Below the pieces are notes generated by a model, which was given only the letters and a program-made list of their open reading frames with translations, had not been told where the DNA came from and searched no databases. This document shows, piece after piece, positions 2,634 to 19,884 of a stretch of 64,000 nucleotides of DNA (its first letter is position 1; each line of letters starts with the position of its first letter). The translations under genes and the position numbers were made by a program. This stretch comes from Lachnoclostridium sp. Marseille-P6806 (GTDB lineage: Bacteria; Bacillota; Clostridia; Lachnospirales; Lachnospiraceae), in assembly GCF_900625025.1 (NCBI RefSeq), contig NZ_LR130579.1, positions 1 through 64,000 of the forward strand. Reading direction: 5' to 3'.

Positions 2634-5600
2634 TTAGGTACGGCGTGCCGACATGCCTTCCGGCAGCATCCCGATGAAGTTTCCGACACCGCAGGCGGGC
2701 TCTAAAATGTTGCCGCCCTGAAAGCCCATCTGGGAGAGGGCGTCGTATATGGCTTTGATAATGACCGGAGAGGTATAAAAGGCGGTCAGGGAGCTGGCTC
2801 TGGCGGCAGCGTATTCTTCCTCGGTCAGCAGGCGTTTCAGTTCCGGATATTTGCTGTGGCGCTCATCAAAGCAATCGGACAGACCGCCCCAGCCCGCGTA
2901 GCGGGATAAGATTTCCTGTTCCTTTGGTGTGGCCAGCCGCTCCTCGGCTTCAATCTGCTGTAAGGTGCGGATGGCGGCGACATTGGCACTGTATTTTTCC
3001 GTGGGAGTGCCGTAGCCCAGTTCCGGGTCAGTGATGTGGAAGTCGTGTCTTTCTTCGGCTGGTATCTCCGGGTGCAGCATGGCAAAGGTCACACGCTCCC
3101 GGCGAGGTTTCGGCGGCGTAAGGGTGGCCACCGGTGCTGCCTCTCGTGTCGGCTTCGGAGCACTTTGCTCTATTCCAGATAGTTCCGGTTGCCTGTTAGA
3201 AAATGCTTCCTCCGCATCTGCAACCATAGCGTCGAAATCCAGGCTGGCAAGGTACTCGTTCAGCTCGGCAAAACCTTGGCACTCATTGGTATAGACCGGT
3301 TCCCCGTCCACGGCATAGATCAGGCGGAAATTCACAAGATCAGCGTAAACCTCAATTAGATGTTCACCGTCGCTGGTACTGGAAAGGGCCAGGTCCACAT
3401 GGGAAAGGTCGGCAAAGTCCGCATCACTTTCAAAGGTCTCCTGGCAGTAGGCATTGATCAGCCAGATGGCCTTCTCCAAGTCAGTCTGCTTCGTTTTTTC
3501 CTGCTGGACCTCCCGCGTCTGTGGCGGGGTCGGAGCCGACTCATTCTTTTCCCCGAACAGGGAATAGGTGCCATCCCGGTAGGAGACAAAGGCGAATAAA
3601 GCGTCCTGCCGGTCCTGATAATACCGGTCGTCTGGAGTGCTACTGTCCGCTGCGGAGACCAGCATCGGATAGATTGCTTCTACCTTTACCGGATCGGTGA
3701 GCTGTGCTTGGATTTCCCGGGCCGCTTCCCAATAATCGCTGATCGGGTTGCCGCTGAACGGACGGGGGTGCTCCTCCGGAAGATCATAAAAAGCGCGGAG
3801 GATAATGGTCGAAAGTACCCGCCGCTCATAATCCGGCATGGCAGCCCGGTCTTCCTCGGACAGAAAACTGCCGCTCTCAATCAAGCTTGCAATACGCTGC
3901 GCGGCCTTGTTCCAGCTCCAGTCCAGCTTGGCATAGGGCGCTGTGATGCTGCCGTGGCTAAAGGAAAGGCCCTTGCTGCCATAGGTGATGTTGTCGTTGC
4001 CGCCATGCTGACCGCTGTCGCCGTGATAGTTCGCCAGATATTTTGCCCGCTCGTTCATATCCGGGTGTTCCAGATAAAAGGAGTAAACGCCCAGCCTGTA
4101 ATGGGAATTGCCGCCCCGTAAGAGCCCGTCGATCTCGTCCAAGGAGATAAAGAAGCGCCGCTGGGGATCGTAATCCTCGGCGGCGGTAAAGCGGACTGGC
4201 TCACGCTGCAGGTCGGTCAGCCGTTCCAGTATTCGTTTCGGGCGGTGAAAGTGGAAACGCAGAAGATCGCGGTTTCCCTCGTAAGCGGAGATGAAGTCCT
4301 GTAACTCCTCCACAAGCACCTGCAAAGTCTCCGGCTGTTTCAGCAGCTCCTTGATCTGTGCCGTCTGCTCCAGAAAACCGCCGCCTGACGTATAGATACC
4401 GTTGATTTGCGAAAGCAAGGCCTGTTCCCGTGCTTCCTCCGCAAAGTCCTGACGGAGATACCAAAGGCTGTTTGCCACCTCCTGATATTCATAGTCTGTT
4501 ACCCGGTCAAGTTCTGCCTGAGGCATGTAGCGTCCGGCGTCCAACAGTTCCCGGATACGCTTAGCCGCGTCTTCCCAGGAGATCAGCATGGAGGCATTTC
4601 CCTGTGTGCTGTCCCCGGAGGAGAGGCGAATTCCCTCGGTGTTGTACCAGATGGCATACGGACGGTCATTCAAGTAAAAGCCAGCGCCGTTCTCTCCGTA
4701 ATGCTCCATGAGAAAACGGGCGTTCTCCGCAAGGGGCTTGTTCTTCATGAAGTGGGCGCGGATGATCAGGCGGCTGTTACGGTCGTTGGCTCCGATACAA
4801 AGAGCCTCATCGATCACCTGCTGGGGATAGCGGAGCCCATAGGCTACGGGTTCTGCCGGTGCCATCTGCTCCGGTGCGGTAAATTCTGCGAAATCAAAGA
4901 GGGACAGCTGCCGGGTCTCTTGTGTTTTCAGCCCCTTGCTGTCCCTGTTCAGGTGATAGTCGCCTTTGTCGATGATCTGGGCGGTCCAATCTGCCACGAT
5001 CTGCCAGGAAAAGACGCTTTCCCTGCTGCGGGATAGATAAGAGCCCTCCCAAATAAGAAGGCCGTTCTCCTGTGCTTTATAGCCCACACGCCTGCGGGAT
5101 GCTCCCACAAGCAGCGCCGTATAGCGGTCCGGATAGGCGCTTTTCAGATACTCTGTCCGTTCCTCGGTATCGGGGTGTGCAGCAAAATACATCTCGATCT
5201 GCGCCTTCTTGTATTTCAGGTCGTCATCCGAGTTGGCAAGGATGGCGAAGATCAGCTCCTCATCCAAAAACGCGGGAAGCCGCGTCGTCGCAAAGTCCGC
5301 ACCGCTCGCAACGGAATCCACATCGGATTCCCTTTCTCGCTCCGCTCCCTTGCTTCTCCTTTCCCCAAAAAGCATTTGCTTTTTGGGGGCCCCAGTTCCC
5401 GCGTTTTCCTCCGGTGTTTCTTCGTTTAGCTGTAGATCAGCTCCATCAGCACGGTCTCCTCCGCGGCCTGCCGGATGCTGTTCATCAGCCCCACCCACTT
5501 CATCTGGTTGGCGGCCTTCAGCTGCTCCGTCACGCCCTCGGCTTTCGCCAGCTGCTCCGTGATCTGCTCCACCCGGCTCCTGGCTGTCTGCTCGATCTCC

Positions 5601-6623: not shown

Positions 6624-6638
6624 CGCTTACGCCTCCTT

Positions 6639-7184
6639 CTACCTTTGCAATTCCGTGCTCTGCCGCTGCCAGGGAAGAGAAAGCCCGTAGACTCTGGCAA
6701 TGTCATCGCCCAGCCTGCGGGTCACTCTTGTGTTATCGGCGCGGGTCGCCGTTCCGTCATACAGTTTCTCTTTCAACAGGTCGATCTGGGAATCACTTAT
6801 GCCATCTTTATAGGCACGGTAGAGATAGTGGTTGGTGCCGTCGTGATGAATGGCGTCGCATCGCAGGTCGCCCAGCTGATCTACGTACCAGGTGCTGTAA
6901 TCCGTATCGGCGTACAGGCAGTCCCGGATGTTCCCACTCTCGATCTCCTTGTATCCGCTGTGGCGGCCATCCCATAATCCCAGATCTCCGATCACTAAAA
7001 TCGGGCGGTCCAACTGGATGTTGAGGTTCATGCGCTCATCTTCCAGGTAGTCATTGTTGATTTCATACATCAGGGAGATGCGCTCATCCTCGGACAAATC
7101 CGGATATTGCTCCTCCAGGTCATCCTTCCAGTCGTCATAGTCCAGAAAGTAATTGCTCCAGATGATATGCTTTTCTTTCTTCAT
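6639..7184 (-). CDS. Conserved ICE protein of unknown function
   Basis: The 181-residue protein is acidic, rich in aromatic residues, Asp and Tyr, and has no signal peptide or membrane segment. It opens MKKEKHIIWSNYFLDYDDW and has a central hydrophobic strand (PILVIGDLGLWDG). I recognise it as a protein regularly found just before the giant methylase/helicase gene of such elements but know no function. The start at 7184 has only a weak G-rich site (GGGGTAAG) upstream. The preceding frame overlaps its first 50 nt, which suggests translational coupling. Its stop lies 15 nt before the next start. Confidence 0.7.
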   Translation of the reverse strand: MKKEKHIIWSNYFLDYDDWKDDLEEQYPDLSEDERISLMYEINNDYLEDERMNLNIQLDRPILVIGDLGLWDGRHSGYKEIESGNIRDCLYADTDYSTWYVDQLGDLRCDAIHHDGTNHYLYRAYKDGISDSQIDLLKEKLYDGTATRADNTRVTRRLGDDIARVYGLSLPWQRQSTELQR

Positions 7185-7461
7185 CGCATCTTACCCCGTT
7201 TCCTCTTTGCCCTCGTTTTCCTTCTTTTGCCATTGCCTCCGAAATCTCTGAGAGAATACGCGCACCCACCACCTTTTTATGGTCGCCATAAGCTTCATCC
7301 AGTGCCTTGTTCTGAACAGCCAGAACCGTCCGGATATTGGGCACCGTGATCCCCGGTATCTCCACCATTTCCTCCGGTGTGATATCCAGAAGCTGACTTG
7401 GCTGATATCCGGCTTCTGCAAAGATACGTAGAAGCCGCTCTTCAAACCGTTCCCGTTTCAT
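7135..7461 (-). CDS. Conserved small ICE protein of unknown function
   Basis: The 108-residue protein starts MKRERFEERLLRIFAEAGY behind AAGGAG at 10 nt. It contains a PSQLLDITPEEMVEIPGITVPNI segment resembling the helix-hairpin-helix-like fold of small DNA-associated proteins, though no catalytic motif is visible. The last 50 nt overlap the next gene in another frame; the basic C-terminal tail encoded there may not be conserved. It belongs to the same minus-strand ICE operon. Confidence 0.65.
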   Translation of the reverse strand: MKRERFEERLLRIFAEAGYQPSQLLDITPEEMVEIPGITVPNIRTVLAVQNKALDEAYGDHKKVVGARILSEISEAMAKEGKRGQRGNGVRCDEERKAYHLEQLLSGL

Positions 7462-7835: not shown

Positions 7836-8768
7836 TTACCGTTCCATATCCCTCTGACGCTTACGATAAAGTTCCAGTGCCTTGACGATGGTATCTTCAA
7901 TCTTTTGTACGGGCGTCCCCGGTGCAAAAAATTTGCTGATACGCTCTTTTGGGATCTTTACCTGTTCTTTCTGGTTTGGTTTTTCTTCCTGTATGATGGA
8001 CAGAATCACATCTCCGTTCAGCTTTCCCTCCTCCGAAAATCTCCGCAATTTGATCGCCTGAGCATAAGAGGGCGTGCAGTCCTCCATTTCCATTGTTTCT
8101 TGTAAAGCCATCTGTTCGCTTTCGGACAGGTAGGACAACTCCACGGCAGGGCGCATGGCAATCTTGCCCTCATCCACCATGTCCAACAGCGGAGGGATAA
8201 GGTTTGTCAGACGAATGTAACGTTGAATTTGTGTATTGCTATCCGGCGAATTATCTGCAAGTATCTCTCTTGATGTTAATCCCGACTTCTGTCCCACTGG
8301 GACAGAAGTTAAGTCTGTACGTTCTCCTTGTTGCCGTTTCATCGCCTCCAGTTTCATTTTGTAGGCAAAGGCTTTTTCCGATGGCAGTATCTTTTCCCGC
8401 TGCAGGTTGCTGTCAATCATCAGAAGAATGGCTTCGTCACCGGTAAGATCTCGCACAAGACAGGGAAGCTCCGTTTGCTGTGCCAGCTCTGCCGCCAGCT
8501 TGCGCCGGTGCCCGGCAACCATCTCATAGCCGCCCTCCGGCTTTGGACGTACCATAGCGGGAACCAGCACCCCATACTGTTTCACGCTCTCTGTCATCTC
8601 CTGCATGGCTTCGTCCATCCGCACCTTAAAGGGGTGGTTTGGAAAGTCGCTGATCTCGGAGATGGGAATCTTCTTTACCGTTTCCCGTTTTGCCTCATCC
8701 CGTTCCGCCTGCGTGGTAAACAGTTCATCGACCGAGGTCAGAAGATCGGCTGCGCTCTTTTTCTCCAA
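7836..8768 (-). CDS. parB: ParB/Spo0J-family partition protein
   Basis: The 310-residue protein has the ParB N-terminal nuclease-like fold, with a conserved NHPFKVR box and GHRRKLAAELAQ (the CTPase C motif region) at about residues 50-100. A helix-turn-helix segment for parS binding follows (LTSREILADNS, then IQRYIRLTNLIPPLLDMVDEGKI), and the C-terminal region is basic and coiled. It would load at parS sites and work with the adjacent ParA to partition or stabilise the element. The start overlaps the parA 3' end by 44 nt, consistent with co-translation. parS was not located in the window. Confidence 0.93.
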   Translation of the reverse strand: MEKKSAADLLTSVDELFTTQAERDEAKRETVKKIPISEISDFPNHPFKVRMDEAMQEMTESVKQYGVLVPAMVRPKPEGGYEMVAGHRRKLAAELAQQTELPCLVRDLTGDEAILLMIDSNLQREKILPSEKAFAYKMKLEAMKRQQGERTDLTSVPVGQKSGLTSREILADNSPDSNTQIQRYIRLTNLIPPLLDMVDEGKIAMRPAVELSYLSESEQMALQETMEMEDCTPSYAQAIKLRRFSEEGKLNGDVILSIIQEEKPNQKEQVKIPKERISKFFAPGTPVQKIEDTIVKALELYRKRQRDMER

Positions 8769-9546
8769 TGCTCATCACCTCCTTTACCAGACTGCGGTAG
8801 GCATCTGCCGCTTTTCCCTTTGGTTCATGCAAAAAGATGCTCTTGTCCGCGGTACTGATCTCTGCAAGCCGCACCGTAGAGGGGATAACAGTCTGCAACA
8901 CGGACAGATGCCTCCCGAAGTTCTCCCGGACAGACTTTACGATGTCTCTGCGGAAGTTTGTCTCATTCGCCATCGTCAGGAACACGCCGCCCACTTTCAA
9001 TTTAGGGTTGATCTGCCGATTAATGCTCTGCACAGTCCCGATCAGTTCCGTCATATCCTCCGCCGCAAGATAGTCCGCCTGCACGGGAATCAAAACATAG
9101 TCAGAAGCAGACAGAGCGTTGATGACCAGCATGCCAAGAGAGGGACGGCAATCCAGCAGAACATAGTCGTAATCCTGTTTGACACTGTCCAGATACTGCC
9201 GCAGCACCGTTTCCCGGCTCATCACATTGACCAGTCCCACCTCTACGGCGGAGAGCGTGCGGTTGGCCGGGACGAAATCAAAGCCCTCCGCATGGTGCAT
9301 GACTTCCGGGTGTACCGGTGCATCCATTCCGGCGACAATATCATTTATCTTGTTTGCCAGGGTCAGCGACAGCTCATGGGGCTTACGCTGGCCTAGCATT
9401 TTGGTAAGATCGCCCTGCGGGTCCACATCGACAAGCAGGGCTTTATGCCCGGCGGCGACCAAACCGGCCCCGATACAGTACACGGACGTACTTTTGCCGA
9501 CACCGCCTTTCTGATTCGCCACGGAAATGACCTTTGTCTTTACCAT
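8725..9546 (-). CDS. parA: ParA-family partition ATPase
   Basis: The 273-residue protein has the deviant Walker A of ParA/MinD (KGGVGKST), the A' box LLVDVDPQGDLTK and the Walker B-like LLDCRPSLG. It is a cytoplasmic ATPase that binds nucleoid DNA and moves ParB-parS complexes; in integrated elements it is thought to stabilise the excised circle. The ATG at 9546 was chosen because AAAGGAGG lies 10 nt upstream; the longer frame would begin inside that site. It is co-transcribed with parB. Confidence 0.93.
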   Translation of the reverse strand: MVKTKVISVANQKGGVGKSTSVYCIGAGLVAAGHKALLVDVDPQGDLTKMLGQRKPHELSLTLANKINDIVAGMDAPVHPEVMHHAEGFDFVPANRTLSAVEVGLVNVMSRETVLRQYLDSVKQDYDYVLLDCRPSLGMLVINALSASDYVLIPVQADYLAAEDMTELIGTVQSINRQINPKLKVGGVFLTMANETNFRRDIVKSVRENFGRHLSVLQTVIPSTVRLAEISTADKSIFLHEPKGKAADAYRSLVKEVMSIGEKERSRSSDLGR

Positions 9547-9610
9547 TGGGGTTTTTCCTCCTTTCAAAGATTGAGCCGCCTGCGGCAGCAGACGGCTATG
9601 TAGGGAAATA

Positions 9611-9676: not shown

Positions 9677-9838
9677 TCACATCAGACGGGATACCTTCAC
9701 GATCATTTCGTCGATGCAGTCTGTGTATCTGCCCTCACGGATCAGCTTGTTTTTACAATGGACCAGGCTGGCCATGACGATGCGCAGCTCTTCGTATGTA
9801 AGATAAAGATAGTGTTTTTCTTTCTTCTTCCACAACAT
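9677..9838 (-). CDS. 53-residue conserved ICE protein
   Basis: The protein opens MLWKKKEKHYLYLTYEEL and is basic and helical, with no membrane segment. The start at 9838 was chosen because AAAGGAGG lies 9 nt upstream; longer versions start within or before the site. I recognise it as a small protein that accompanies parA at the end of such elements, without a known role. It is the outermost element gene before the rlmD tail, so the element boundary should lie close to 9.84-9.90 kb. Confidence 0.6.
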   Translation of the reverse strand: MLWKKKEKHYLYLTYEELRIVMASLVHCKNKLIREGRYTDCIDEMIVKVSRLM

Positions 9839-9878: not shown

Positions 9879-10259
9879 TCAGACACCAGACAAATGTGCG
9901 ATTTTTACTGCTGATGCTTCTTTCTTGCTGATAAGTTCAAAATGAATTAATGCGTCTGTGATGGCCCTTACCTTATCTTTTGTCGGATGTGCCTTACGAT
10001 TCTTTAATTTCTCAACTGCATTGGGAGCATCATACATGGGCAGGCCAAACGCTCTTTTCACTTCTGCTATGTAAGCGGTGTGTACCTTGAATCCGTATTT
10101 TTCTTCTATGTACTCCTTTATTTTCTTATATGTAACCTTTTCTTTTGGTTTGTACTTTTCTGCCCTCTCCGCTATTTTATCAAGCGGCACCTTTCCTTTT
10201 CCCTCGCCAAACTTCACTTTTACGTTGATATGACTGTCCGGAGCCTTGTGGGAAAGCAT
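9879..10259 (-). CDS. Detached C-terminal tail domain of RlmD (126 residues)
   Basis: This frame encodes the tail that many Lachnospiraceae carry at the end of RlmD. It opens with LSHKAPDSHINVKVKFGEG, continues with VTYKKIKEYIEEKYGFKVHT and GLPMYDAPNAVEKL, and ends in a Lys/Thr-rich helix. The first 45 or so residues match the tail still attached to RlmD at 18.1-18.2 kb; the rest is missing there. In frame upstream it keeps VETVV, then meets TAG, so nothing of the methyltransferase core is present. A valine/leucine-to-ATG change creates a start at 10259 but without a good ribosome binding site. The last ten codons may already be element sequence. It may be a relic or an expressed stand-alone tail. 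Confidence 0.7.
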   Translation of the reverse strand: MLSHKAPDSHINVKVKFGEGKGKVPLDKIAERAEKYKPKEKVTYKKIKEYIEEKYGFKVHTAYIAEVKRAFGLPMYDAPNAVEKLKNRKAHPTKDKVRAITDALIHFELISKKEASAVKIAHLSGV

Positions 10260-10276
10260 TACTACCGTCTCAACAT
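10084..10276 (-). repeat. Left copy of rlmD-tail direct repeat
   Basis: These 193 bp align without gaps to 18050-18242 with 9 mismatches by my count (about 95% identity) in the same orientation. Weaker similarity continues for about 35 bp beyond the left end. The two copies bracket 7.8 kb of defence genes. Confidence 0.9.
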
Positions 10277-10380
10277 AAGTATCGAACTAAAACATATCCC
10301 CACAAAATGGCGGAAAAACAGACAACATTTATACAGTACTAATACTGCTAGTGCATCCCTTTTCCCACAAAATATAACTA

Positions 10381-10979
10381 GTGACGTTCATCAAACGTTA
10401 TTCTTTTCTGCCTTGCGACAAAGGAAAAACCTCTGCCAAGTTCAAAAAGGAACTTCTGCAAATACGTAATTAACGCTTGCTCTAAATCACTTTCATAAAA
10501 ATCGTCATTATGTCAGTTCAAGAAATTCCAACACATATGGTTCACGAATAACATCTTCTGTTTTTTCGCTAGCTATAATGTCTTTACTTCCTCTGCAACT
10601 TGTTCTTTATTTTACTGGACAATAACCTTTCAAAAAAGAAAGAATTTATCTGACGATCAAGTTGTCTGGTACTCCATTGAGACTTTACAGTTTCCTCCAA
10701 ATAAAATTCTCATGTAATTTGCTTTTCAGATCACATCAAAAGTCGATAATACATCCAACTCAATTCGCTACGCAGTGCGTAGCCGTTTGGAAACGTTAAA
10801 TAAAACTGCCGCATATTTCTCAAGCTTGCAACGGTAAATCCTTTCCCAAAATCTTGAGTCATTTGTTTTGAAAATTCTTTCAATAAACCTGTTCCGTGAT
10901 CCGCCTTTTCGTTACCATTTTGTTCTCCAATGATTGATTTTCCAATATTCCAATAAGCTTTAACCATTGCAAAGTTGGC
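10381..10979 (-). pseudogene. Decayed YhcG/DUF1016 family PDDEXK nuclease
   Basis: The best preserved part is a 78-codon frame (10731-10967) with MVKAYWNIGKSIIGEQ, GKGFTVASLRNMRQFYLTFP and RSELSWMYYRLL, which is the DUF1016 N-terminal domain. After TGA the homology resumes in frame as EFYLEETVKSQWSTRQLDRQ. It then shifts frame through EDVIREPYVLEFLEL and ends as LELGRGFSFVARQKRITFDERH, the start of the PDDEXK nuclease domain, before TAG at 10380. The N-terminal end and the last catalytic part are gone. The family is frequent in defence and mobile regions. The gene is dead here from at least two stops and a frameshift. Confidence 0.8.
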
Positions 10980-11072
10980 AGTTTAATAAACTTTATTTCT
11001 TGCTGAAATTAGAAGTTTTGATTTCTTTATAAAAAATACATTCATCTTGTAAACTATCCCTTCTTTTACAAA

Positions 11073-11960
11073 TTATTTATTAACCTTTCTTTTTGAATTA
11101 GCAAGGAACGTATTTTGCGAAAACGGTCCCTTATATGCCTCCTCATCCAAAAAGCCGAGAATAACCTTTATCTGTTCTTTATCATTTGGAATAACAACTT
11201 TCTTGTTTTCAACCGCAATCCTTATCCCGGCGTCTTTAGCCAATTTTTTTATTTCTGATGCTTTATAATTTACAAGCACATCAGAATCATTAATCATAGC
11301 TATTTTTCTCCTTATCCAAGTATTAGCCGTATTCTTAAATGCCTCTGTATCTTCGAAAGATAATTTGTCACTTGTTGCAAATGCTTGAACTTCTTGATCC
11401 GTTGCAGATCTATAATATTCACTCAAATCAAAAATCTGCCTTGCAAAATAGAAAGAGGAAAATTGCAATTCTCCTTCTGTATAATAACAATCCGCCGTAT
11501 CAGAAATACTTATTCCAAAGTTCTTTTCTCTTCTAAATGTATCTCTAGTGAAAAATAAATTTACCCAATTTGTAGTGATATATTGTTCTTTACGAAAGCG
11601 CTGAAAGGCAACTTGAAATCTTTCAGTATCCTCCGTTTCCGTCCTCTTTCCAACAAATATTGCTTTAATTTCATAAAACTCACCGTTTTCTTTTTGATAT
11701 GCAGGCACGCCTAATGGATCTCTTATTGCATCTTTAATTTCATCTGAAAGATGAAAATTTTTAATAACTAAAAACTCGTCATTATTTGGTTTATAACTGC
11801 CATCGAATGAAATTTTTGTTTTTTCAGAAATCAAATCATTTACTGCACTATCAAGTGATAAGCAAACTTCCTTTTGTGTGTCTGCATCAACTTCAAGTCT
11901 ATACAATTCATCTAAATGACTTCCGTTTGCAATAATTATTATTGAACAATCCTCAAACAT
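11073..11960 (-). CDS. kwaB: Kiwa defence system protein KwaB (DUF4868)
   Basis: The 295-residue soluble protein matches my memory of the DUF4868 layout: a variable N-terminal half, RFQVAFQRFRKEQYI, a FGISISDTADCYY strand region, FDLSEYYRSATDQEVQAF, and a C-terminal part with KASEIKKLAKDAGIRIAVE ending NSKRKV. In Kiwa, KwaB binds DNA and forms a membrane-associated complex with KwaA that restricts phage replication and transcription. ATG 11960 was chosen over the longer frame because AGAGGAG lies about 11 nt upstream and the start then falls just after the kwaA stop. The direct neighbour is a four-helix membrane protein of the right size, which supports the call. The gene is markedly more AT-rich than the chromosome. 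Confidence 0.78.
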   Translation of the reverse strand: MFEDCSIIIIANGSHLDELYRLEVDADTQKEVCLSLDSAVNDLISEKTKISFDGSYKPNNDEFLVIKNFHLSDEIKDAIRDPLGVPAYQKENGEFYEIKAIFVGKRTETEDTERFQVAFQRFRKEQYITTNWVNLFFTRDTFRREKNFGISISDTADCYYTEGELQFSSFYFARQIFDLSEYYRSATDQEVQAFATSDKLSFEDTEAFKNTANTWIRRKIAMINDSDVLVNYKASEIKKLAKDAGIRIAVENKKVVIPNDKEQIKVILGFLDEEAYKGPFSQNTFLANSKRKVNK

Positions 11961-11967
11961 GCTATAT

Positions 11968-12495
11968 TTATCTCCTCTCTGCATCCAAAAGCAAATAGTC
12001 AAAAATCCTATTAACTGTTTTCACATCTTTCGCTTTTCTAAGTTTTCTATTACTAATTAAAACGCTTCCCGATATCCCATGCTCACCGCTCACTTGATAA
12101 AAATGATATCCTCGTAAAAATAATATCGGATTGGGAATTGCTGTATTAACACATGGTGCTGCCATAATCAACATACCAGCTATAATAACGCAAATTATTA
12201 AATTAATATCCTTAATTGCCAGACTTGCAAATGGAAACATATATGTGATTATATACACAATAACCCAACTATCATAAGGGGCTATATCATTTATTCTTAT
12301 TTTTATGGGGGCAAAATGCCTTTTTCCATAAGCAAAGGATACAATAAACAGTATAACAAGAACGATTCCTATACATATTGCAATACATGAAATATCCCTA
12401 GTCTTTTTTTGCCAATACCAAACCAAGGCAAAGATAAAACATAAGGGTGCAGCAGCGGACAAATTATATATAAATCGTTGTGATATATTTCCCAT
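11968..12495 (-). CDS. kwaA: Kiwa defence system membrane protein KwaA
   Basis: The 175-residue protein has four hydrophobic segments, at about residues 9-27, 34-55, 76-95 and 97-115, followed by a cytoplasmic domain of about 60 residues containing ISGSVLISNRKLRKAKDV. KwaA is the inner-membrane partner of KwaB and is reported to sense phage attachment at the membrane. Sequence identity within KwaA is low, so the call depends on topology, size and linkage: kwaA ends 7 nt before kwaB. The start has only a weak ribosome binding site. The pair lies between two rlmD-tail copies. Confidence 0.7.
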   Translation of the reverse strand: MGNISQRFIYNLSAAAPLCFIFALVWYWQKKTRDISCIAICIGIVLVILFIVSFAYGKRHFAPIKIRINDIAPYDSWVIVYIITYMFPFASLAIKDINLIICVIIAGMLIMAAPCVNTAIPNPILFLRGYHFYQVSGEHGISGSVLISNRKLRKAKDVKTVNRIFDYLLLDAERR

Positions 12496-12533
12496 ATCTC
12501 TAACCTACTCTTTCTGATGATTTGTTGTATCAA

Positions 12534-12672
12534 TTATATTATCTCAAAGTATTTAAACGCATCTCGCTTCCACGCTTTTCTCTGTCGGATGCTTTCTCGG
12601 TTGTTTTAGTTCTTCTACTGCATTAGGGGCGTCCTACATAGGAAGCCCCTAAACTCTCTTTACTTCTGCTAT
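12534..12672 (-). pseudogene. Middle, degenerate copy of the rlmD tail 3' end
   Basis: Reading minus from 12672 gives IAEVKRV, a stop, GLPM, a stop, DAPNAVEELKQPRKHPTEK, then a frameshift and DAFKYFEII with a natural TAA at 12536-12534. This is the last 45 or so codons of an RlmD tail and is more like the usual family sequence than the left copy. Two nonsense codons and one frameshift show it has been inactive for some time. It separates the Kiwa block from the Qat block and shows that the tail was duplicated more than once. Confidence 0.8.
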
Positions 12673-12775
12673 CTTTAGGCGTCAGACGCTTCCGTGATTC
12701 CATGAAGGCTTCCTTGAATCAGGTGCTGTCGAAGAGAGTTATGCCCTTATAATTTCCTTGCATGTCAATACATTC

Positions 12776-13504
12776 TTACTTTGTATTGATTAAAGCTTGT
12801 AGATTTCTATGAAACAATTCATTCATGTCATCAATCCCAATGCTATTCTCTTTTGCAAAATATGAAGTAACTGTTGTATCCCACGGCATATATGGCACAC
12901 CATCTTTTTGTGTGAATGGAGCATCCGTTTCTGGAAGCATCCTATCAAGTGGTATGCAGCCGATCACCTTTTTCCCCGTAGCAGTAAAACACATATTGGG
13001 ATTAACACTGAACCAACAGCCAAGTTCGACTGCTTTTTCCGCATCTTTAGCGCTTCCAGTAAACCAATGAAGTACTGCAACATACTTTCCTTCATGTTTT
13101 CCAAGAATTTGCAGCACTTCTTTTACGGCTCCCCTGGAATGGATGCTTAAGACCTTCCCTCCATAAACAGCAGCAGTATGAAGCACTTCATCAAAGAACT
13201 CTATCTGCTCAGAAATTGATTGTCTCGCTCTCTGGGACCCGTCTATGCCTATTTCCCCCAGGAATCGAGCTGACTTCATCTGTTCAAAAAATAATTCTTT
13301 TTCCGAGAAACGCTGTTTTACTAGTTCTGGATGAAATCCAAGTGCTACTCTTACATTATTTGATCCCTTAAAGTACTGTGAAGTTTTGACAAACGCTCTG
13401 GGACTGGTAGTGACTGCAAGTACTTCCGTTTTCCTTCCCTTAACCTCGTCAAATACTTTCATAGGATCTTCATACAAATCTAAATGACAGTGAAAATCGA
13501 TCAT
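12776..13504 (-). CDS. qatD: QatD, TatD-family metal-dependent nuclease
   Basis: The 242-residue TIM-barrel protein has the TatD metal ligands: the N-terminal HCH (residues 5-7), LGEIGID, IHSRGA, LHWFTG and ETDAPF. TatD enzymes are metal-dependent DNases. QatD is the fourth component of the QatABCD anti-phage system, where its catalytic residues are reported to be needed. The start overlaps the qatC stop by 4 nt (ATGA), so the four genes are translationally coupled. It is shorter than housekeeping TatD (about 255-265 residues) and clearly diverged from it. It is the last gene of the operon; a decayed rlmD tail lies about 100 bp downstream. Confidence 0.9.
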   Translation of the reverse strand: MIDFHCHLDLYEDPMKVFDEVKGRKTEVLAVTTSPRAFVKTSQYFKGSNNVRVALGFHPELVKQRFSEKELFFEQMKSARFLGEIGIDGSQRARQSISEQIEFFDEVLHTAAVYGGKVLSIHSRGAVKEVLQILGKHEGKYVAVLHWFTGSAKDAEKAVELGCWFSVNPNMCFTATGKKVIGCIPLDRMLPETDAPFTQKDGVPYMPWDTTVTSYFAKENSIGIDDMNELFHRNLQALINTK

Positions 13505-14772
13505 AATACATTATGCTCCATCAAAAGAGTCCGTATCTCGTCTAAACCACGACTTACAACGCCAAAATACTCTTTTCTTTCAGGAGCCTCACTAAATGAC
13601 AAAGCTGACTTAACGAATCTCTCAATCCCATGATTTTGAACTTCTATACACGCCATTGCTGCCGCAGAAACATCTTGAGAAGTAGATCCTTTCAGGGACT
13701 CAACGCAATAACCATTCTCCGTGTCATCCTTTAGGCCAGCCTTTAAGAATGCCGCTCTTCTTACTAAACAAGGAACGCACTCGCCACAATGTCGCAATCC
13801 ATGTCTCTGATATTTACCGCAACTTGTTGAGCCGAAAATGAGGGTTCTCATCAAATCCTGATTTTTACAACCGGTGAGAACTTCTCCTTTTGTTTTGAAT
13901 CTATATGGAAGAACGAGATCCACTTTAAGATCAAGATCATTCCAAATATTCTGAAGCATTCTCATGTATACGGGATGCGTTGTTTTTGTGCTAAGACTAC
14001 CAATCCGTATATGATCAAGCGGGATATTAAGGCTTATATAACCGTTTTCCGGAACAAATATTTCTTTTCTTCCATCTTCGTTATAATCAATGCCACATGA
14101 TGCCAGAAGAGCATAAGCAAAAAAGATTATTGATCGCGCCCTTGTGGAGTTTTCTGTCCTTCCATGCTTTTTTACACTATTGCTCCATTGACATAGATTA
14201 TCTTCCCCAACAGCCGCAGCATAAGCGCGCTGGTGCTCTGCATCTCCTCTAACGATCTGGGAAAGGAATAGCGGATTTCGTCCTTCCTCATGAAGATCAA
14301 TGGCACCTACAAGGCTATCCATTCCTCCTGAGAGCAAACAGACGCAATCATTGCTTCTCAATGGATAATCCTTTTTGGGGCATATTGGTGCATCAAGCTT
14401 TTCAAAATGTATAGTCCAGAAATCCCCCGTTAGAAAGCGGAGCATCTCTTCAAGTTGTTTTTTCTCTTGTAGCCATTTATCGAACTCATGAACATATACT
14501 GTCATCTCAATTTGCCGCGTCCATCCATCAGCACATTCGCTTCTTAATACAGCCTTGTCCGCAGAAACTACACCCAAAGCTATCATTAGAAAATCAAACG
14601 CGGGCACTAACGGATGTATTTGGGATCTACGCATCTCTTTAAGGATTTGCAACCCAACATGCCCTACGTTCGTACGATTTTCTTCGGGCGTAGAGAACAT
14701 TTCAAAATATAATGCGCTATCATCGTAAGCTGAGGGTTTACAACAGCGCGGATAACAAATGACTTTACTCAT
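13501..14772 (-). CDS. qatC: QatC, QueC-like PP-loop enzyme
   Basis: The 423-residue protein carries the PP-loop ATP pyrophosphatase motif SGGMDS at residues 148-153 and a four-cysteine zinc site C318-x10-C329-x2-C332-x2-C335, both typical of QueC (7-cyano-7-deazaguanine synthase). The N-terminal 140 residues are an extension absent from QueC. In the related type IV CBASS system a QueC-like enzyme has been reported to attach a deazaguanine to the N-terminal glycine of its partner protein; QatC is expected to act similarly, with QatB the obvious target. It overlaps qatB and qatD by 4 nt each. No other queuosine gene is present, which argues against a role in tRNA modification. Confidence 0.92.
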   Translation of the reverse strand: MSKVICYPRCCKPSAYDDSALYFEMFSTPEENRTNVGHVGLQILKEMRRSQIHPLVPAFDFLMIALGVVSADKAVLRSECADGWTRQIEMTVYVHEFDKWLQEKKQLEEMLRFLTGDFWTIHFEKLDAPICPKKDYPLRSNDCVCLLSGGMDSLVGAIDLHEEGRNPLFLSQIVRGDAEHQRAYAAAVGEDNLCQWSNSVKKHGRTENSTRARSIIFFAYALLASCGIDYNEDGRKEIFVPENGYISLNIPLDHIRIGSLSTKTTHPVYMRMLQNIWNDLDLKVDLVLPYRFKTKGEVLTGCKNQDLMRTLIFGSTSCGKYQRHGLRHCGECVPCLVRRAAFLKAGLKDDTENGYCVESLKGSTSQDVSAAAMACIEVQNHGIERFVKSALSFSEAPERKEYFGVVSRGLDEIRTLLMEHNVL

Positions 14773-15563
14773 ACTTCAACCTCGAATACTTCGAATGTAT
14801 TTTTTATCGTATCTTGAAAGAGTTGATTCATGTCCACATTTTGATCCGTCGTTTTTCTCAATGCATCCATCTGTGTTGCAATTTCCGATTGAATATAATC
14901 TCGCATATCATTCAACCTATTCACACGGTCAACATAAGGAACATCCTGCTTTTCAAAGGCTTGCCCAATATCCATCTGTATTCTGTTAAAAGCCTCATTA
15001 CCAAGATATATTGCCGTTAATGACCAAATCTGATCGTCGCTCAAATTGCTGAAATCAGCATCTGGATTTTGATCCATAAACTCACTTAATGCGGATGTTC
15101 CTGAATCACGGCAGGATACCTCATCAACACTTCCGCCTTTTGGACATACATGACCCACTATGGCATCAATTATTTCAGATGCATCTGCTCCGCGATTCTT
15201 GAGCTCCGATATCTCTTTTCCTAAAGAAAAAGTAGTATCATCTCTGAGAGAACGGAAAGTGTTGAAGAAGTTTGATGCGGTTTTTGTTGATGTGCGCATT
15301 CTGCGGGCAACATTTTGTGCCCCACCCATTCCAGTTTTTGAATAATGCCCTAGCGATCTCCTCGCAGAATCTTTACTACCGGAACGGACATATTCTCCCA
15401 TGCTTTTTCGCGCACTTCCAAACCGCGCTTTCGGAGCAATTCCTATAGCTGGATTCACATTGTTATTCTGGTTATCTTGTCCAGGAACATCAATATCATC
15501 TAGCCATGGCGGATCAAAAGAAACGCCTGCTCCTGGTCCTTTACTTGAAGCGGAAGTCCCCAT
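14769..15563 (-). CDS. qatB: QatB, Qat anti-phage system associated protein
   Basis: The 264-residue protein begins MGTSASSKGPGAGVSFDPPW. The family keeps this glycine-rich, proline/tryptophan-containing start, and methionine removal would expose glycine 2. The rest is predicted soluble: an RS/GKS-rich stretch at about residues 45-90, then helices, with no catalytic motif that I can see. QatB is required for QatABCD defence, and its biochemical role beyond being the likely substrate of QatC is not settled to my knowledge. The gene starts 2 nt after the qatA stop and overlaps qatC by 4 nt. Confidence 0.88.
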   Translation of the reverse strand: MGTSASSKGPGAGVSFDPPWLDDIDVPGQDNQNNNVNPAIGIAPKARFGSARKSMGEYVRSGSKDSARRSLGHYSKTGMGGAQNVARRMRTSTKTASNFFNTFRSLRDDTTFSLGKEISELKNRGADASEIIDAIVGHVCPKGGSVDEVSCRDSGTSALSEFMDQNPDADFSNLSDDQIWSLTAIYLGNEAFNRIQMDIGQAFEKQDVPYVDRVNRLNDMRDYIQSEIATQMDALRKTTDQNVDMNQLFQDTIKNTFEVFEVEV

Positions 15564-15565
15564 GC

Positions 15566-17455
15566 TTATTTCCTCGATTTCTTAGGCGTTATAGAATTCT
15601 TAACCGATTCTGGTGTTTCTGAATCGTTAACCCATTTTTCAAGCAATCCTTTTGCCCAATCCTTATCTTTGATTCGTCCCACGATCGCAGGTTTAACAGA
15701 TTTCGATGGAATTTCACCTAATGCTAACGCCAACCTATCTCCTATAGAAGGATAAGCCTCCGTAATATGGATTGCCGCACACACTGTGTCCACTTTCCAC
15801 TGATTACCCCTGCCGATTCGCGCAATTTGATTCAGTAGCAGTGTGGATTCCATCTCTCCGATTCCCTTGATCTTATCTATTAGCCCCTGGTTTAGCGGTC
15901 CATTCTTCACCACCTTTAAAGCTTCTAAGATTTTCTTTCCTTCAGGAGACAACTCATCATATGCAGCAAAAGGCATTGATCTGTCTTTGCTCAAATAAAT
16001 CAATGGACGCAAATCCATTTCGCCTAAAGCAGGTGACAACAACAACCATTTCTTGATGAAATCCGTCTCCCAATTAGTGTCAGGAGCATTGTATTCATTG
16101 CCGGTTACCAAACTATCTTCCAATTCTTTTATGAAGTTCGGTTTTCCATCCTCATCTTGTAAGACTTGCTGAGACAAGTAATCAAAAGCCCCGGCTGAAG
16201 CACATCTTTCAAAGAGTAGCATCTTGATAAGAAGCCCTGGATCAACTGTAATACCGTTAAATGTTGCTACTTTCTTGCGGATTTCCAGTGAGTTCATGAA
16301 CCTCTTTATTAACCTTGGATTTCCCTTAATGTTGTCTGCCGTCGCAAGAATACCAGCTAACTGATCTGCCAAAGAAACATAACCTGAAAGCCCCTCTAAA
16401 GTGATTTTTTCCAAAGCTTTTTCGATAGCCTCCTTAGTTACGGGAGTTTGCCATGCGCCAGAAAGCAAGTCATTCAACTTCTTCTGGGCGTCAGTAAGCA
16501 TCTTTTCATCCAGATTGTGCTTTCTGATATCTGCCTCGATATACAGAAGGACAATGTATACTTTGATTTCAGCAACACCCAAACGCGGCACAGTAATCGG
16601 CACCTGTATCAGCTTATCGAAATAGCTTGTGATTAAGCCTTCGGATAATTCAACGTCTCCAAAATGCGCTCGGACGCCGTTCCGTATCATCTGTTCATCT
16701 GCTGCAATGATAAAAGCAGTTCTATCGACAAACAGCAAAAGTCTCATAGCCTCAAGTGTTGAAACAGCAGTTTCCGGCAGACATCTGTCCAGATCGTCAA
16801 CCAGCACTACTAATTTTACATTGAGCTTTTCTAAGAGCTCTTGGAATTCCTTGCGGAGTCCTTCAATCTGCTCAGTTGCTGGCTTTGCCGCTTCATCTTT
16901 TAAGAGTTCCTTCATTTCAGGAGCAAATTTCTCAAACGCATTGTTGACAGCCTCGCTGTTTGCCGAAGCTTCCTCTGGATTACCTATACTGTTGGAAATG
17001 GCGGAGACAAGACCTCCGATTGCACCTACCGCATTAACTCCGGGAATAAAACTGGCGATAAGAGGAAGCACTAATTTAGAAACCTGAAACCAGCTTATCC
17101 TTTTGGTGAACTTTTTCAGTTTATCCCAAGCTCCATCTCCTTCAGGGATCTTTCTCTTTTTCATTTCGGAAGACAGCTTTTTGGAAACTGATTGTAACAG
17201 AGCTGCTCTGGCATCATCATATCCTTGATAAAGCCAAGCATTGAACTCTAAAAAAATATAGTTTTCGTCTGTCTCATCGCGGTTCTTCAAATCCTGGCCG
17301 ATCATCTTTACCATCGATGATTTTCCTGAGCCCCAACTTCCTGAAACTCCTATAGATATTGGGCTCTTTCCCGATTCAACAATCATGTCCGCGACTGCCT
17401 GCGAAACAACAGAAAAATGCAGATAATCTGTTGACGTTTCTATATCATTCCACAT
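15566..17455 (-). CDS. qatA: QatA, KAP-family P-loop ATPase
   Basis: The 629-residue protein has Walker A GSWGSGKSS at about residues 39-47 and Walker B KLVVLVDDLDRC at about 214-225. Between them are two hydrophobic helices (about 127-157), the inserted membrane segment typical of KAP NTPases. The long helical C-terminal half includes DNIKGNPRLIKRFMNSLE, a sensor-2-like motif. KAP proteins are membrane-associated STAND-like ATPases. In Qat this is the first gene and is needed for defence against phage. The start is 10 nt before an older brxL remnant ends, so the promoter must lie within or upstream of that remnant; I did not find a clear one. Confidence 0.93.
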   Translation of the reverse strand: MWNDIETSTDYLHFSVVSQAVADMIVESGKSPISIGVSGSWGSGKSSMVKMIGQDLKNRDETDENYIFLEFNAWLYQGYDDARAALLQSVSKKLSSEMKKRKIPEGDGAWDKLKKFTKRISWFQVSKLVLPLIASFIPGVNAVGAIGGLVSAISNSIGNPEEASANSEAVNNAFEKFAPEMKELLKDEAAKPATEQIEGLRKEFQELLEKLNVKLVVLVDDLDRCLPETAVSTLEAMRLLLFVDRTAFIIAADEQMIRNGVRAHFGDVELSEGLITSYFDKLIQVPITVPRLGVAEIKVYIVLLYIEADIRKHNLDEKMLTDAQKKLNDLLSGAWQTPVTKEAIEKALEKITLEGLSGYVSLADQLAGILATADNIKGNPRLIKRFMNSLEIRKKVATFNGITVDPGLLIKMLLFERCASAGAFDYLSQQVLQDEDGKPNFIKELEDSLVTGNEYNAPDTNWETDFIKKWLLLSPALGEMDLRPLIYLSKDRSMPFAAYDELSPEGKKILEALKVVKNGPLNQGLIDKIKGIGEMESTLLLNQIARIGRGNQWKVDTVCAAIHITEAYPSIGDRLALALGEIPSKSVKPAIVGRIKDKDWAKGLLEKWVNDSETPESVKNSITPKKSRK

Positions 17456-17466
17456 GTATATTCTCC

Positions 17467-18031
17467 TTACTCCACTCCCAGTGCTTTATACACCGCATCT
17501 TCAGCGCTGTTATTGAAAATCAAATTAAATCCTCCAACCAGATCATTCGGGACAGTACCAAGAGCCCGATGGAGGTTATCGGCAACAATACTCTTTTCGC
17601 TCCAGAGTCCAAGTACACCTGCAAAGTGTTCGCCAGTTCATCTACCTTGATGATAGTGCCGCCTATCCGATTACCATTCGCCTTCAGGAAACTGAACGCA
17701 GTATGGGGAGCTTCTCTGTATTCACGGTCAGAATCGAAACCAGTACGATCGAATTTGCCGTTTCCGGGGAACATCTGGCTCAATAAAAGGAACTAGCCGA
17801 TCATTCCTGATTTCCACAGACTGTCGCATATACCAGTCTAGAATTGCACACGCCCTCAGGAATCAACTTTCCACCGCCCTACTCAAGCACTGAAATGTAG
17901 TGTCCTTCAAAAGTCGTGTTATTAATGTATGAGAAGTTCACATGAAAGGACTCCATGTCACCCAGCTTCTTCAGCTGTTCCTTTACGCGACGGCGCATCT
18001 CCAGTGCAAAAATCAGGCTCTTTTCACCTTT
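17467..18031 (-). pseudogene. C-terminal remnant of BREX Lon-like protease gene brxL
   Basis: Reading minus from 18031 gives KGEKSLIFALEMRRRVKEQL, GDMESFHVNFSYINNTTFEG, a TAG, then GGGKLIPEGVCN. After a further stop and frameshift it continues FPGNGKFDRTGFDSDREYRE, AFSFLKANGNRI joined directly to GGTIIKVDELANTLQVYLDS, and RVLLPITS. A final frameshift leads to LGTVPNDLVGGFNLIF and EDAVYKALGVE with a natural stop at 17467. This is the end of BrxL, the Lon-like BREX component, with an internal deletion after NGNRI, two nonsense codons and two frameshifts. No other BREX gene is present. The remnant joins the rlmD tail within AAAGGTGAAAAGAGC, where both homologies meet. Confidence 0.82.
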
Positions 18032-18049
18032 ATTATATAAGTGCTATGC

Positions 18050-18242
18050 ACCTTGAATCCGTATTTTTCTTCTATGTACTCCTATATCATCTTATATGTA
18101 ACCTTTTCTTTTGCTTTGTACTTTTCTGCCCTCTCTGCTATTTTATCAAGCGGTACCTTTCCTTTTCCCTCGCCGAACTCCACTTTTACGTTGATATGAC
18201 TGTCCGGAGCCTTGTGGGAAAGCAGTACTACCGTCTCAACAT
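18050..18242 (-). repeat. Right copy of rlmD-tail direct repeat, attached to rlmD
   Basis: This copy is still fused in frame to the methyltransferase core. Compared with 10084-10276 it has 9 mismatches; one turns an AAG codon into TAG and ends RlmD at residue 600. Weak similarity continues leftward to about 18017, where the brxL remnant begins. Confidence 0.9.
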
Positions 18243-19884
18243 GCACCGTCTGCCCGAACTGGTCCACCGCCTGCACTCTCTCGAGCTCATACCGGTACTC
18301 CTCCCCGTCCCTGCTCCTCTGCCCCCTCGTCAGCTTCGCCAGATCGCGGGCAAGCGTCGCGCTGTCGCAGCTCACATATACGATGCGCTTCGGGGCCATC
18401 GCAAGGCAGGTCGCAATCGTCACATCGTCCAGTCCCCTTCGCGGCGGATCGACCACAATGACATCCACCGGATGCTCGCGGTATTCCTCCCGGTGACGCT
18501 CCACGTAGCGCGGCAGAACCTCCTCCGCGCGCCCCACCTCAAACTGCACATTGCATATTCCGTTAAGGCGCGCGTTTTCTCTTGCATCGCGGATCGCCTC
18601 GGGAATCACCTCCACCCCGTAGACTTTCCCCGCTCTGCGCGCAAGAAAAAGCGAGATCGTGCCGATCCCGCAATAAAGATCCCAGACCGTTTCCTTTCCG
18701 GTGAGCCCGGCAAAATCCAGAACAAGACTGTACAGCTTCTCCGTCTGTTTCGGATTCACCTGATAAAAGGAGAGCGGCGAGATTCTGAAATCCACACGTT
18801 CCCCAGTCGAAACAAAGCGCACTCCAGAAGCCAAACCGGCGCCGGAACCAATATCAGAACCGGCGCCGTCTCCCGCTTCTTCCCTCTCCGTCAGGCCCTC
18901 ACGGCTTTCCGCGCCCATATCCTCCACCGCAAACACCCGCAGTGAATCGCGGATCGCCTCCGCCCCCCAGATGACGCGCAGCGTTTTCCCGAGAATCACG
19001 TTGCCGCGGGCTTCATTGCAGTTCAGGGATATTCCCGCAACGCCGGGCAAGGTGCGGAGCCGCTCCACCAGACGCTCCTCGGCGGGCAGCGTTTTCCCGT
19101 TGACGACAAGGCAGACCATGATCTCACGGCTGTACAGGCCGGTTCGGATCAGAACGTGGCGCAACAGGCCTCTGCCGGATTTTTCGTCATAGGCCGGAAC
19201 CTGTTCCTCCTGCATATAATCGAGCACCGCCCGCAAAATTCTGTCGTTCCCCACATCCCCGAGCAGGCAGTCCGTCATCGGGACAATGCTGTGCGTCCGG
19301 CCTGCGTAGAAGCCTGCGACAGGCTTTCCGCTGCGGTCCGTCCCCAGCGGCACCTGCGCCTTATTGCGATAACGGAACGGCTCCTCCATTCCCACAATCG
19401 GCCGCATCACACGGTCGAGAAGCGCGGGTGCAAAACTTCCGAGCCGGAGCAGATTCCCGCGCACCTTTTTCTGCTTGAATGCAAGCTGTTTTTCATAGCG
19501 AAGCGTCTGGAGCTGACATCCGCCGCACTGTCTGGCAATCGGGCAGCTTGCCTCGACGCGATCCGGAGAGGGGCAGTCGACGGACAGAAGCCTTGCATAC
19601 GCATAGCCCGGCGCAGCTTTCATAACGGCAGCGGTAACCGTATCCCCGACCACCGCATCCTTTACAAAAACAGTGTAGCGTTTCCCCTGTTCCGCACCCG
19701 CGCTTTCACTTTCTGCCGAAGCGAACCGCGCGCCGCCAGACTGCATCCCGCCGGGCTGCGCATTGCCAGACTGCGCTGGCAGCACAACGTGGCCGATTCC
19801 CTCGCCGTCATTTCCGATGTCTTCAATCGTCAAATGGAGAATATCGTCTTTCTGCACCGGCGTATTTTTTCTTTTTCCAGACAT
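18082..19884 (-). CDS. rlmD: 23S rRNA (uracil-5-)-methyltransferase, RumA family, with truncated tail
   Basis: The 600-residue enzyme has an N-terminal TRAM domain (about 12-100), the iron-sulfur cysteines C114-x5-C120-x2-C123, SAM motif I DLYCGIGT (402-409), the VDPPRRG motif (478-484) and the catalytic cysteine C506 in VSCDSATLARDL. It uses SAM to form 5-methyluridine in 23S rRNA; in Firmicutes one enzyme may modify both U747 and U1939 (RlmCD). It is longer than the usual 440-460 residues. The excess is a Gly/Ala/Ser insert in TRAM (about 37-67), a Gly/Glu-rich insert (about 321-358) and the start of a C-terminal tail (about 550-600) cut by TAG. The complete tail lies 8 kb away. The start follows yhaM by 4 nt. 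Confidence 0.93.
   Translation of the reverse strand: MSGKRKNTPVQKDDILHLTIEDIGNDGEGIGHVVLPAQSGNAQPGGMQSGGARFASAESESAGAEQGKRYTVFVKDAVVGDTVTAAVMKAAPGYAYARLLSVDCPSPDRVEASCPIARQCGGCQLQTLRYEKQLAFKQKKVRGNLLRLGSFAPALLDRVMRPIVGMEEPFRYRNKAQVPLGTDRSGKPVAGFYAGRTHSIVPMTDCLLGDVGNDRILRAVLDYMQEEQVPAYDEKSGRGLLRHVLIRTGLYSREIMVCLVVNGKTLPAEERLVERLRTLPGVAGISLNCNEARGNVILGKTLRVIWGAEAIRDSLRVFAVEDMGAESREGLTEREEAGDGAGSDIGSGAGLASGVRFVSTGERVDFRISPLSFYQVNPKQTEKLYSLVLDFAGLTGKETVWDLYCGIGTISLFLARRAGKVYGVEVIPEAIRDARENARLNGICNVQFEVGRAEEVLPRYVERHREEYREHPVDVIVVDPPRRGLDDVTIATCLAMAPKRIVYVSCDSATLARDLAKLTRGQRSRDGEEYRYELERVQAVDQFGQTVHVETVVLLSHKAPDSHINVKVEFGEGKGKVPLDKIAERAEKYKAKEKVTYKMI

Follow-up and report, generated by a model that had tools for sequence, protein, structure and literature searches.

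Defence-gene cassettes with shared ends at the 3' end of rlmD in Lachnospiraceae

Defence genes downstream of rlmD

In the genome of Lachnoclostridium sp. Marseille-P6806, the m5U methyltransferase gene rlmD is followed by a compact run of antiphage defence genes. We analysed this locus in a window of 64,000 nucleotides (the whole stretch of DNA under study; contig NZ_LR130579.1, positions 1 to 64,000), which covers the start of a 171-kb contig and in which the element at position 1 is cut by the contig end. Behind rlmD lie repeated copies of a sequence of about 109 codons (~330 bp), here called the tail, with Qat and Kiwa genes and two gene remnants between them and parA- and parB-like genes of a putative conjugative element beyond the last copy (Table 1). 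Comparison with related genomes revealed a recurring unit that is new here: a tail, one to four co-oriented and mostly defence genes, and a conserved right end of about 120–160 bp (REND), with no integrase hit.

A first-pass annotation of the sequence had described three same-strand copies or fragments of the tail, the outer two differing by 9 mismatches in 193 bp. This description was exact (18050–18242 versus 10084–10276); the full repeat of the outer copies is 226 bp with 18 mismatches, and 12672–12534 holds only the 3' half of the tail, from the AEVKR codons on. E values of 1.2e-35 for the outer copy and 4.0e-9 for the middle fragment put their matches to the protein of the intact tail far beyond chance. 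The genes that the annotation placed between the tails (Kiwa, QatABCD, a dead YhcG nuclease and a dead brxL) were borne out by PADLOC matches and, for YhcG, by 81–85% DNA identity to YhcG genes of four other loci and the finding that its stretch contains no minus-strand open reading frame (ORF) of 80 or more amino acids. Judged by gene content, QatA, QatB, QatC and QatD form a complete Qat set in PADLOC and KwaA and KwaB a complete Kiwa set. KwaA starts about 39 bp past the partial tail, a spacing that resembles other cassettes. The annotation had also seen no integrase, and a Pfam scan of ten proteins between 7836 and 19884 gave no integrase family; ARAGORN found no tRNA in the window. At its end, the REND of the window imitates the 3' end of the methyltransferase gene in frame, a stop included (CGDMF*FDTYVETVV).

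The window probably consists of two fused defence cassettes, alpha (brxL remnant and QatABCD) and beta (KwaAB, YhcG remnant and REND), with a putative integrative and conjugative element (ICE) docked behind them. A deletion may have taken the right end of alpha together with the 5' half of the tail of beta, fusing the two cassettes, and the putative ICE would later have docked at the REND of beta. Site-specific insertion of the Qat block exactly at the AEVKR codons was considered and rejected, since tail 2 shares 92% identity with the 5' half of tail 1 but only 75% with the 3' fragment. Because of this difference, the two pieces are probably halves of different tails. A fixed crossover at AEVKR was not seen in three informative pairs of cassettes with the same cargo.

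Table 1. Coordinates of features at the rlmD locus, in window positions
Feature	Position	Strand	Evidence or remark
m5U methyltransferase rlmD, body	18223..19884	-	Pfam PF05958 4.4e-22; 3' end HVETVVLL = docking site
Attachment core and decayed tail 1, left end of cassette alpha	18017..18242	-	Internal stop; cut at AEVKR codons
brxL remnant	17520..18010	-	PADLOC BrxL 5.7e-15 and 5.6e-13, two separate pieces
qatA	15566..17455	-	PADLOC QatA 2.3e-132
qatB	14769..15563	-	PADLOC QatB 3.2e-29
qatC	13501..14772	-	PADLOC QatC 5.2e-97
qatD (TatD-like)	12776..13504	-	PADLOC QatD 7.1e-76
3' half of second tail, left end of cassette beta	12534..12672	-	Protein match 4.0e-9; starts at AEVKR codons
kwaA	11968..12495	-	PADLOC KwaA 2.2e-30
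kwaB	11073..12002	-	PADLOC KwaB 6.6e-81; Pfam PF16162
YhcG (DUF1016) pseudogene	10382..11060	-	81–85% DNA identity to YhcG genes of L037, L042, L038 and L054
REND, cassette right end	10259..10432	-	blastn 9e-16 to 4e-33 against nine other loci; model R1 9.4e-34 (training member)
Attachment core and intact tail 2, left end of putative conjugative element	9879..10276	-	
Small left-end ORF of putative conjugative element	9680..9838	-	Homologues 3' of tails in seven loci
parA-like gene, putative conjugative element	8725..9567	-	Pfam AAA_31 2.9e-50
parB-like gene, putative conjugative element	7836..8768	-	Pfam ParB_N 3.1e-17
Remainder of putative conjugative element	1..7461	-	SNF2/helicase-like ORF 2630-108 (Pfam SNF2-rel 7.8e-8); large ORF 6623-2634

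The tail and the native end of rlmD

In this genome, tail 1 extends rlmD in frame as far as its internal stop. The first-pass annotation had assigned the tail to rlmD itself, an assignment that the ends of rlmD in relatives contradict. A search of 61 same-genus genomes yielded 20 rlmD loci that could be read, own genome included. The native end lies 3–11 residues past HVETVVLL in 11 of these, which are the empty sites that the annotation had proposed to look for. A tail is present at four loci (own genome, two with another tail type and one cut by a contig end), one locus is ambiguous and the other four run into contig ends. Because 11 of the 20 loci end without a tail, the tail is not native to RlmD. 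Moreover, a second m5U methyltransferase paralog of the same genome, outside the window (G000:C3 ~52820-54400; loci L003 and L064 in our numbering), carries a near-identical tail (96% over 45 amino acids) that is truncated, with a remnant of the same element's left end behind it, which indicates that two paralogs have been hit in this genome. Judged by these reading frames, the tail is not RlmD's own but the left end of elements that insert there.

Upstream, tails are joined to either of the two methyltransferase paralogs, to an in-frame serine integrase or to an orphan junction. Serine integrase frames that run into the tail form ORFs of about 650–670 amino acids (L035 9541, L037 10757, L042 9618, L049 9657, L052 414 and L060 14355). 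Since these genes read in frame into it, the tail may serve as the C-terminal domain of the integrase itself where elements stand in tandem or form circles. Tail-like matches at E<=0.001 were found in 98 of 250 family genomes, many of them to distant tail types. The tails inside the Marseille-P6806 genome are alike (92% of 226 nt, 9930-10276 versus 18017-18242; 96% of 45 amino acids), and the best tails of the other family genomes in the 250-genome search reach at most 85% at the amino acid level. The high likeness within one genome suggests local homogenisation or the repeated arrival of one element lineage.

A recurring right end defines a cassette family

Orphan tails are preceded by a conserved stretch of about 120–160 bp that is 80–85% identical to the window's REND in nine other loci. 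A REND model built from sequence only, from nine ends including that of the window, was run on 397 family genomes and matched 23 of them at E<=1e-5; of its 26 matches, nine are training members and two (G076:C13 and G247:C1) are weak. At class level, the model matched five genomes out of 391, including two from other families. When named genomes were scanned by pattern, 29 REND stretches came up, several being the same contigs again, and the genomes included Eubacterium ramulus ATCC 29099, Catenibacillus scindens DSM 106146 and Hominisplanchenecus faecis. Merging ends that share their last 90 nt left 45 non-redundant RENDs. Going by these matches, the cassettes recur widely in Lachnospiraceae and reach at least one further family. 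REND cassettes also occur in two metagenome-assembled genomes labelled outside Lachnospiraceae, Traorella (L144) and Coriobacteriaceae (L145), for which binning errors are possible.

A tail lies within 9.5 kb upstream of 33 of the 45 non-redundant RENDs, and none of these 33 spans between tail and REND matched any of three serine integrase queries. The left neighbour of the 33 tailed cassettes is a methyltransferase in 17 cases, an integrase in seven and not assignable to either in nine. On the 3' side, 17 of the 45 RENDs are followed by another tail, 27 by no tail and one by a contig end. Cassettes thus adjoin integrases or methyltransferases, or form the sole insertion before a short native-type 3' end (L045). 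REND directly after an integrase gene was not seen in the loci mapped, and only the tail is common to cassettes and ICE-like elements. No relaxase or conjugation genes were noticed on reading the cargo ORFs, a reading made without models for such genes. One REND (L039), used as a blastn query for a plasmid or phage vehicle, had no match in PLSDB or INPHARED. We also rejected the possibility that REND is confined to YhcG, since it also ends IetAS, DUF262, CBASS, Lamassu, PARIS and DarTG cassettes.

Cargo of the cassettes

We compiled 52 cargo ORFs of about 150 amino acids or more from the window and the cassettes of the family search, leaving out shorter ORFs (such as a 136-residue ORF of L126, which has no match) and the ORFs of L127 and L138, and scanned 50 of them. 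At E<=1e-10, 36 of the 50 cargo proteins matched PADLOC, compared with at most nine PADLOC member matches among 60 control proteins (mad3 three, six other families one each); the control comprised 60 of the 67 ORFs that lie 5' of methyltransferases, in the same loci and in related ones. We examined 24 ends from the family search, of which 23 were assessable and 21 had at least one PADLOC-matching gene at this threshold. The left limit of the cassette is without a tail marker in L054, L131 and L138.

The systems named by PADLOC include CBASS (L134), AriA with AriB, that is, PARIS (L136), AbiE with Lamassu (L129), IetAS (L036 and L132), Gabija (L145) and DarTG (L159). PADLOC also indicates DUF262-like pairs in L045 and L125, where the second gene reaches only 7.8e-6. 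Restriction-modification genes are present in L152 and L155, and YhcG and RhuM candidates are also among the cargo; many PADLOC matches are to candidate (PDC) families, not proven systems. In another genus, a Qat operon lies upstream of a tail (L047 3982-10282), with serine recombinase fragments before the operon and no REND detected beside it. Nearly all listed cargo ORFs are co-directional with the methyltransferase and usually start within about 150 bp of the tail, the antisense exceptions being a 413-residue ORF in L054 and an 83-residue ORF in L146.

The same cassettes in different hosts

Closely related cassettes were found in distant hosts. The CBASS cassette of L134 and that of L200, from different families of one class, are 97.3% identical over 5,546 bp; the homology starts 21 nt ahead of the tail and stops where REND ends, and blastn finds no match beyond. 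L045 and L125, from different genera, are 94.6% identical over 4,303 bp with the same edges, the sole other match being the further tail of L125, and L037 and L139 are 92.0% identical over 3,676 bp. In these comparisons the outer homology stops at the attachment core or at the end of REND, where the neighbours differ. Two further pairs (L036/L132 and L137/L162) were uninformative, their tails being diverged or partly deleted.

The site also differs between near-identical hosts. At the near-empty site L172, the methyltransferase is 97% identical to that of L133 and only a remnant of about 200 bp lies at the site; its downstream flank is 97.6% identical over 957 bp to the flank that follows REND in L133. 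A third relative (G459, methyltransferase 98%) has about 29 kb at the site: an ICE-like element whose tail lies at the methyltransferase and whose serine integrase frame ends in ...ETVCLLSNRKPD..., then 2.3 kb of other DNA up to the shared flank. The differences among L133, L172 and G459 show that the site is variable between near-identical hosts. No second genome of the genus of L045 was among those searched for an empty site.

REND resembles the docking site

To compare REND with attachment half-sites, we scored the 27 nt immediately 5' of the HVET Glu codon with a matrix built from 24 methyltransferase ends. Nine RENDs, those with a tail following in the locus map, scored 1.9 to 19.1 bits, and methyltransferases left out one at a time scored 16–37. 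In the background (plus strand of the window, n 3548) the mean was -36.2, the 99.9% point -0.9 and the maximum 2.4; seven of the nine RENDs exceeded this maximum and two (1.9 and 2.0) fell below it. Nine integrase ends scored -43.9 to -8.0. Taken together, the REND and integrase-end scores indicate that REND resembles the left half of attB, not that of attP. Of 36 readable RENDs, 35 have a stop in frame within the mimic (CGDMF*FGTHVETV), compared with 29% of random windows. The stop, which may be TAA, TAG or TGA, replaces the usual proline codon just before the attachment core, with L199 as the exception. On these scores, REND looks like a portable attB half.

Explanations for the cassettes

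We consider it likely that the locus is an accretion array at a serine-integrase attachment site in the last rlmD codons, made up of integrase-less defence cassettes and of ICEs whose integrases act in trans. The observed gene orders would fit standard reactions of serine integrases, attL × attR among them. The attachment site would lie inside the last codons of rlmD (DMFPxTxHVETVVLL), and the ICE serine integrases would provide recombination in trans. At the right junction of a cassette, REND and the native end would together form a rebuilt attB. Because REND would thereby recreate attB at the far end of the cassette, the next ICE could dock there, and ICE and cassette could excise together; docking of a new ICE between REND and the native end would give the gene order of the window. 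A cassette circle with an attL-like junction of REND and tail could enter the attR of an ICE by attL × attR, which would produce the observed order of integrase, tail, cassette and REND. Cargo may also be swapped by homologous recombination near the tail, and it is probably read from the host methyltransferase transcript. This reading builds on features that the sequence shows: the common structure, the lack of an integrase hit from tail to REND, the defence cargo, the precise outer edges, the same cargo in distant hosts and the likeness of REND to the left half of attB. A bolder version, in which the cassettes are a dedicated class that brings a portable attB half, grows in arrays, moves as attL circles by means of resident ICE integrases, is expressed from the methyltransferase promoter and exchanges cargo in an integron-like manner, is a tentative proposal about which we are somewhat doubtful.

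Several observations weigh against an accretion array of integrase-less cassettes. Twelve of the 45 RENDs have no tail upstream; ten of these have less than 3.3 kb of sequence there (one, L150, has a longer version, L199, with tail and integrase), and L131 and L161 have more. L130 and L133 lack a PADLOC match at 1e-10, L133 having a dCTP-deaminase-like gene, and in L141 and L143 a cargo ORF is lacking. Inspection of L138, one of the ten with little upstream sequence and no tail found, revealed a serine-recombinase-like fragment (725-1528) 1.7 kb before REND; because of this fragment, an integrase-bearing ancestor of the cassettes is possible. The Marseille-P6806 genome has no close homologue of one rumA-type integrase query (best 25% identical). 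Finally, in the three same-cargo pairs the tail is about 82–94% identical per 120-nt window, whereas the cargo is mostly at 88–100%, and in L045/L125 and L037/L139, two of these three pairs, REND too falls below the cargo in identity. The tail identity of L045/L125 ranks only 24th of 120 tail pairs. Tails that strictly travel with their cargo are not supported by these identities; since tail and REND are less alike than the cargo, termini and cargo have partly separate histories, the pattern that additional cargo exchange by homologous recombination close to the ends would produce.

These identities lead to the most serious alternative, pure homologous recombination, in which tail and REND are merely conserved flanks for RecA-dependent cargo swaps, as in phage and satellite hotspots, and no site-specific movement of cassettes is needed now. 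Identity steps up near the tail end at a different position in each of the three pairs (about nt 297, 378 and 460 from the tail start), which together with the diverged RENDs and the repetition of tails within arrays is what such swaps would leave, and the homologous exchange through the tail that the first-pass annotation had considered fits this pattern. Swaps between conserved flanks do not, however, account for outer homology that stops at the attachment core or the end of REND with differing neighbours beyond, for cassettes that stand beside integrases, beside methyltransferases or as the sole insertion, for the near-identical flank without a cassette in L172, or for a REND that mimics attB in frame; as the whole explanation we consider it unlikely. 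We regard as more improbable still that the cassettes are ICE leftovers, large rumA ICEs decayed by deletion to a tail and defence cargo with no present mobility. The tail is indeed common to element left ends, the window has decayed pieces (tail 1, brxL and YhcG), the L138 fragment resembles a recombinase, and cis-mobilizable elements are defined as decayed derivatives of ICEs and integrative and mobilizable elements in the account of PMC7563491. Yet several cassettes are intact multi-gene operons, no other ICE genes are among the ORFs listed, the same REND recurs in 45 non-redundant cases, and one cassette appears to have passed between families at 97% identity. We give almost no credence to the tail as RlmD's own C-terminal domain, locally duplicated by insertions that target it: its in-frame continuation of rlmD in this genome agrees with that idea, but the empty same-genus sites contradict it, as do the near-identical tail on a different paralog, the tails on integrases or as orphans, and the CTn5 insertion described in PMC4320837, which fuses rumA to CD1844A. 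An accretion array served by ICE integrases thus remains the reading we prefer.

Relation to known elements

Staphylococcal cassette chromosome (SCC) elements are tandem serine-recombinase islands at the 3' end of the rRNA methyltransferase gene rlmH, and they carry ccr genes; rlmH encodes an unrelated methyltransferase. The cassettes described here differ from SCC in their target, which is rlmD or a related m5U methyltransferase paralog, and in having no match to the three serine integrase queries, a search that did not include ccr itself. The first-pass annotation had known of no hotspot at this site. In fact, rumA/rlmD is a published target of serine-integrase ICEs, whose integration swaps the 3' part of rumA with that of the integrase gene (PMC4701971), and the rumA fusion made by CTn5 is a further published case (PMC4320837). 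These ICEs (Tn1549 family, Clostridium difficile CTn5 and streptococcal ICE_rumA) share the target gene, and the third layer of the window resembles the left end of such an ICE; as portrayed in these sources, they carry their own integrase, whereas the cassettes have no integrase hit from tail to REND, mostly defence cargo and a REND end.

The closest described category is that of cis-mobilizable elements (CIMEs), which PMC7563491 presents as att-bounded derivatives, decayed and without recombination or transfer genes, in tandem with ICEs; it also reports composite islands of Streptococcus salivarius at rpmG, rpsI, fda and rplL. The cassettes are likewise att-bounded, without an integrase hit and in tandem with a putative ICE, and attachment sites shared with ICEs, a criterion for CIMEs, were found at cassette ends by junction reads and half-site scores. 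Unlike the CIMEs described in that source, the cassettes use a serine-integrase site, one conserved terminus family, mainly defence cargo and an attB-mimicking right end. The anti-phage hotspots of P2 and P4 phages and satellites also have defence cargo that varies while its place in the mobile element is fixed, as outlined in PMC9122126; they differ in that one REND query was unmatched in the phage collection and that the site here is used by conjugative elements. The ssrA islands of Dehalococcoides, in the description of PMC3146451, are tandem, have gene-end repeats, in some cases lack an integration module and were suggested to be cis-mobilizable, and they differ in target, cargo and termini. 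No description of integrase-less defence cassettes at rumA/rlmD turned up in the literature searched, a search that left subscription papers and preprints mostly outside. The site and its ICEs are already known; the family of defence cassettes with shared ends is new relative to the literature searched and is best filed under CIME-type accretion elements.

Measured against these results, the first-pass annotation was right about a defence-rich insertion hotspot with successive insertions, about tail copies as marks of element ends and about a conjugative (here putative) third neighbour, and wrong in giving the tail to rlmD and in treating the site as new. The flanks of rlmD and its paralog differ among the loci examined, as it had expected. 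It had also asked whether relatives carry the 10–18 kb arrangement unchanged; none of the loci examined does, no dedicated search for the whole arrangement having been run.

Defined by their sequence, the cassettes offer a concrete route along which complete defence systems could pass between gut Clostridia, also across families, without an integrase of their own. By PADLOC, the systems on this route are CBASS, PARIS, Qat, Kiwa, Gabija, Lamassu, AbiE, IetAS and DarTG. The two termini also provide a search handle for new systems, with unannotated cargo genes as candidates, such as those for a 404-residue protein of L039 and a 679-residue ATPase-domain protein of L037, and they turn defence-island assembly into a testable question at one site.

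The putative conjugative element and integrases

The third layer of the window starts with the attachment core and tail 2, followed by the left-end ORF and the parA- and parB-like genes; its core lies behind REND, not directly behind rlmD. This arrangement agrees with the first-pass placement of a conjugative element ending at the tail. Homologues of the small left-end ORF lie 3' of tails at varying distance in L034, L035, L039, L041, L050, L053 and L064. Among nine ORFs of the putative element scanned with Pfam, there was no transfer gene, only ParA/ParB and helicase domains. The genome encodes five PF07508 recombinases. In the ICE-like element of L195 (3592-6573), a primase-helicase that matches the primase domain of the TOTE conflict system lies just before the serine integrase.

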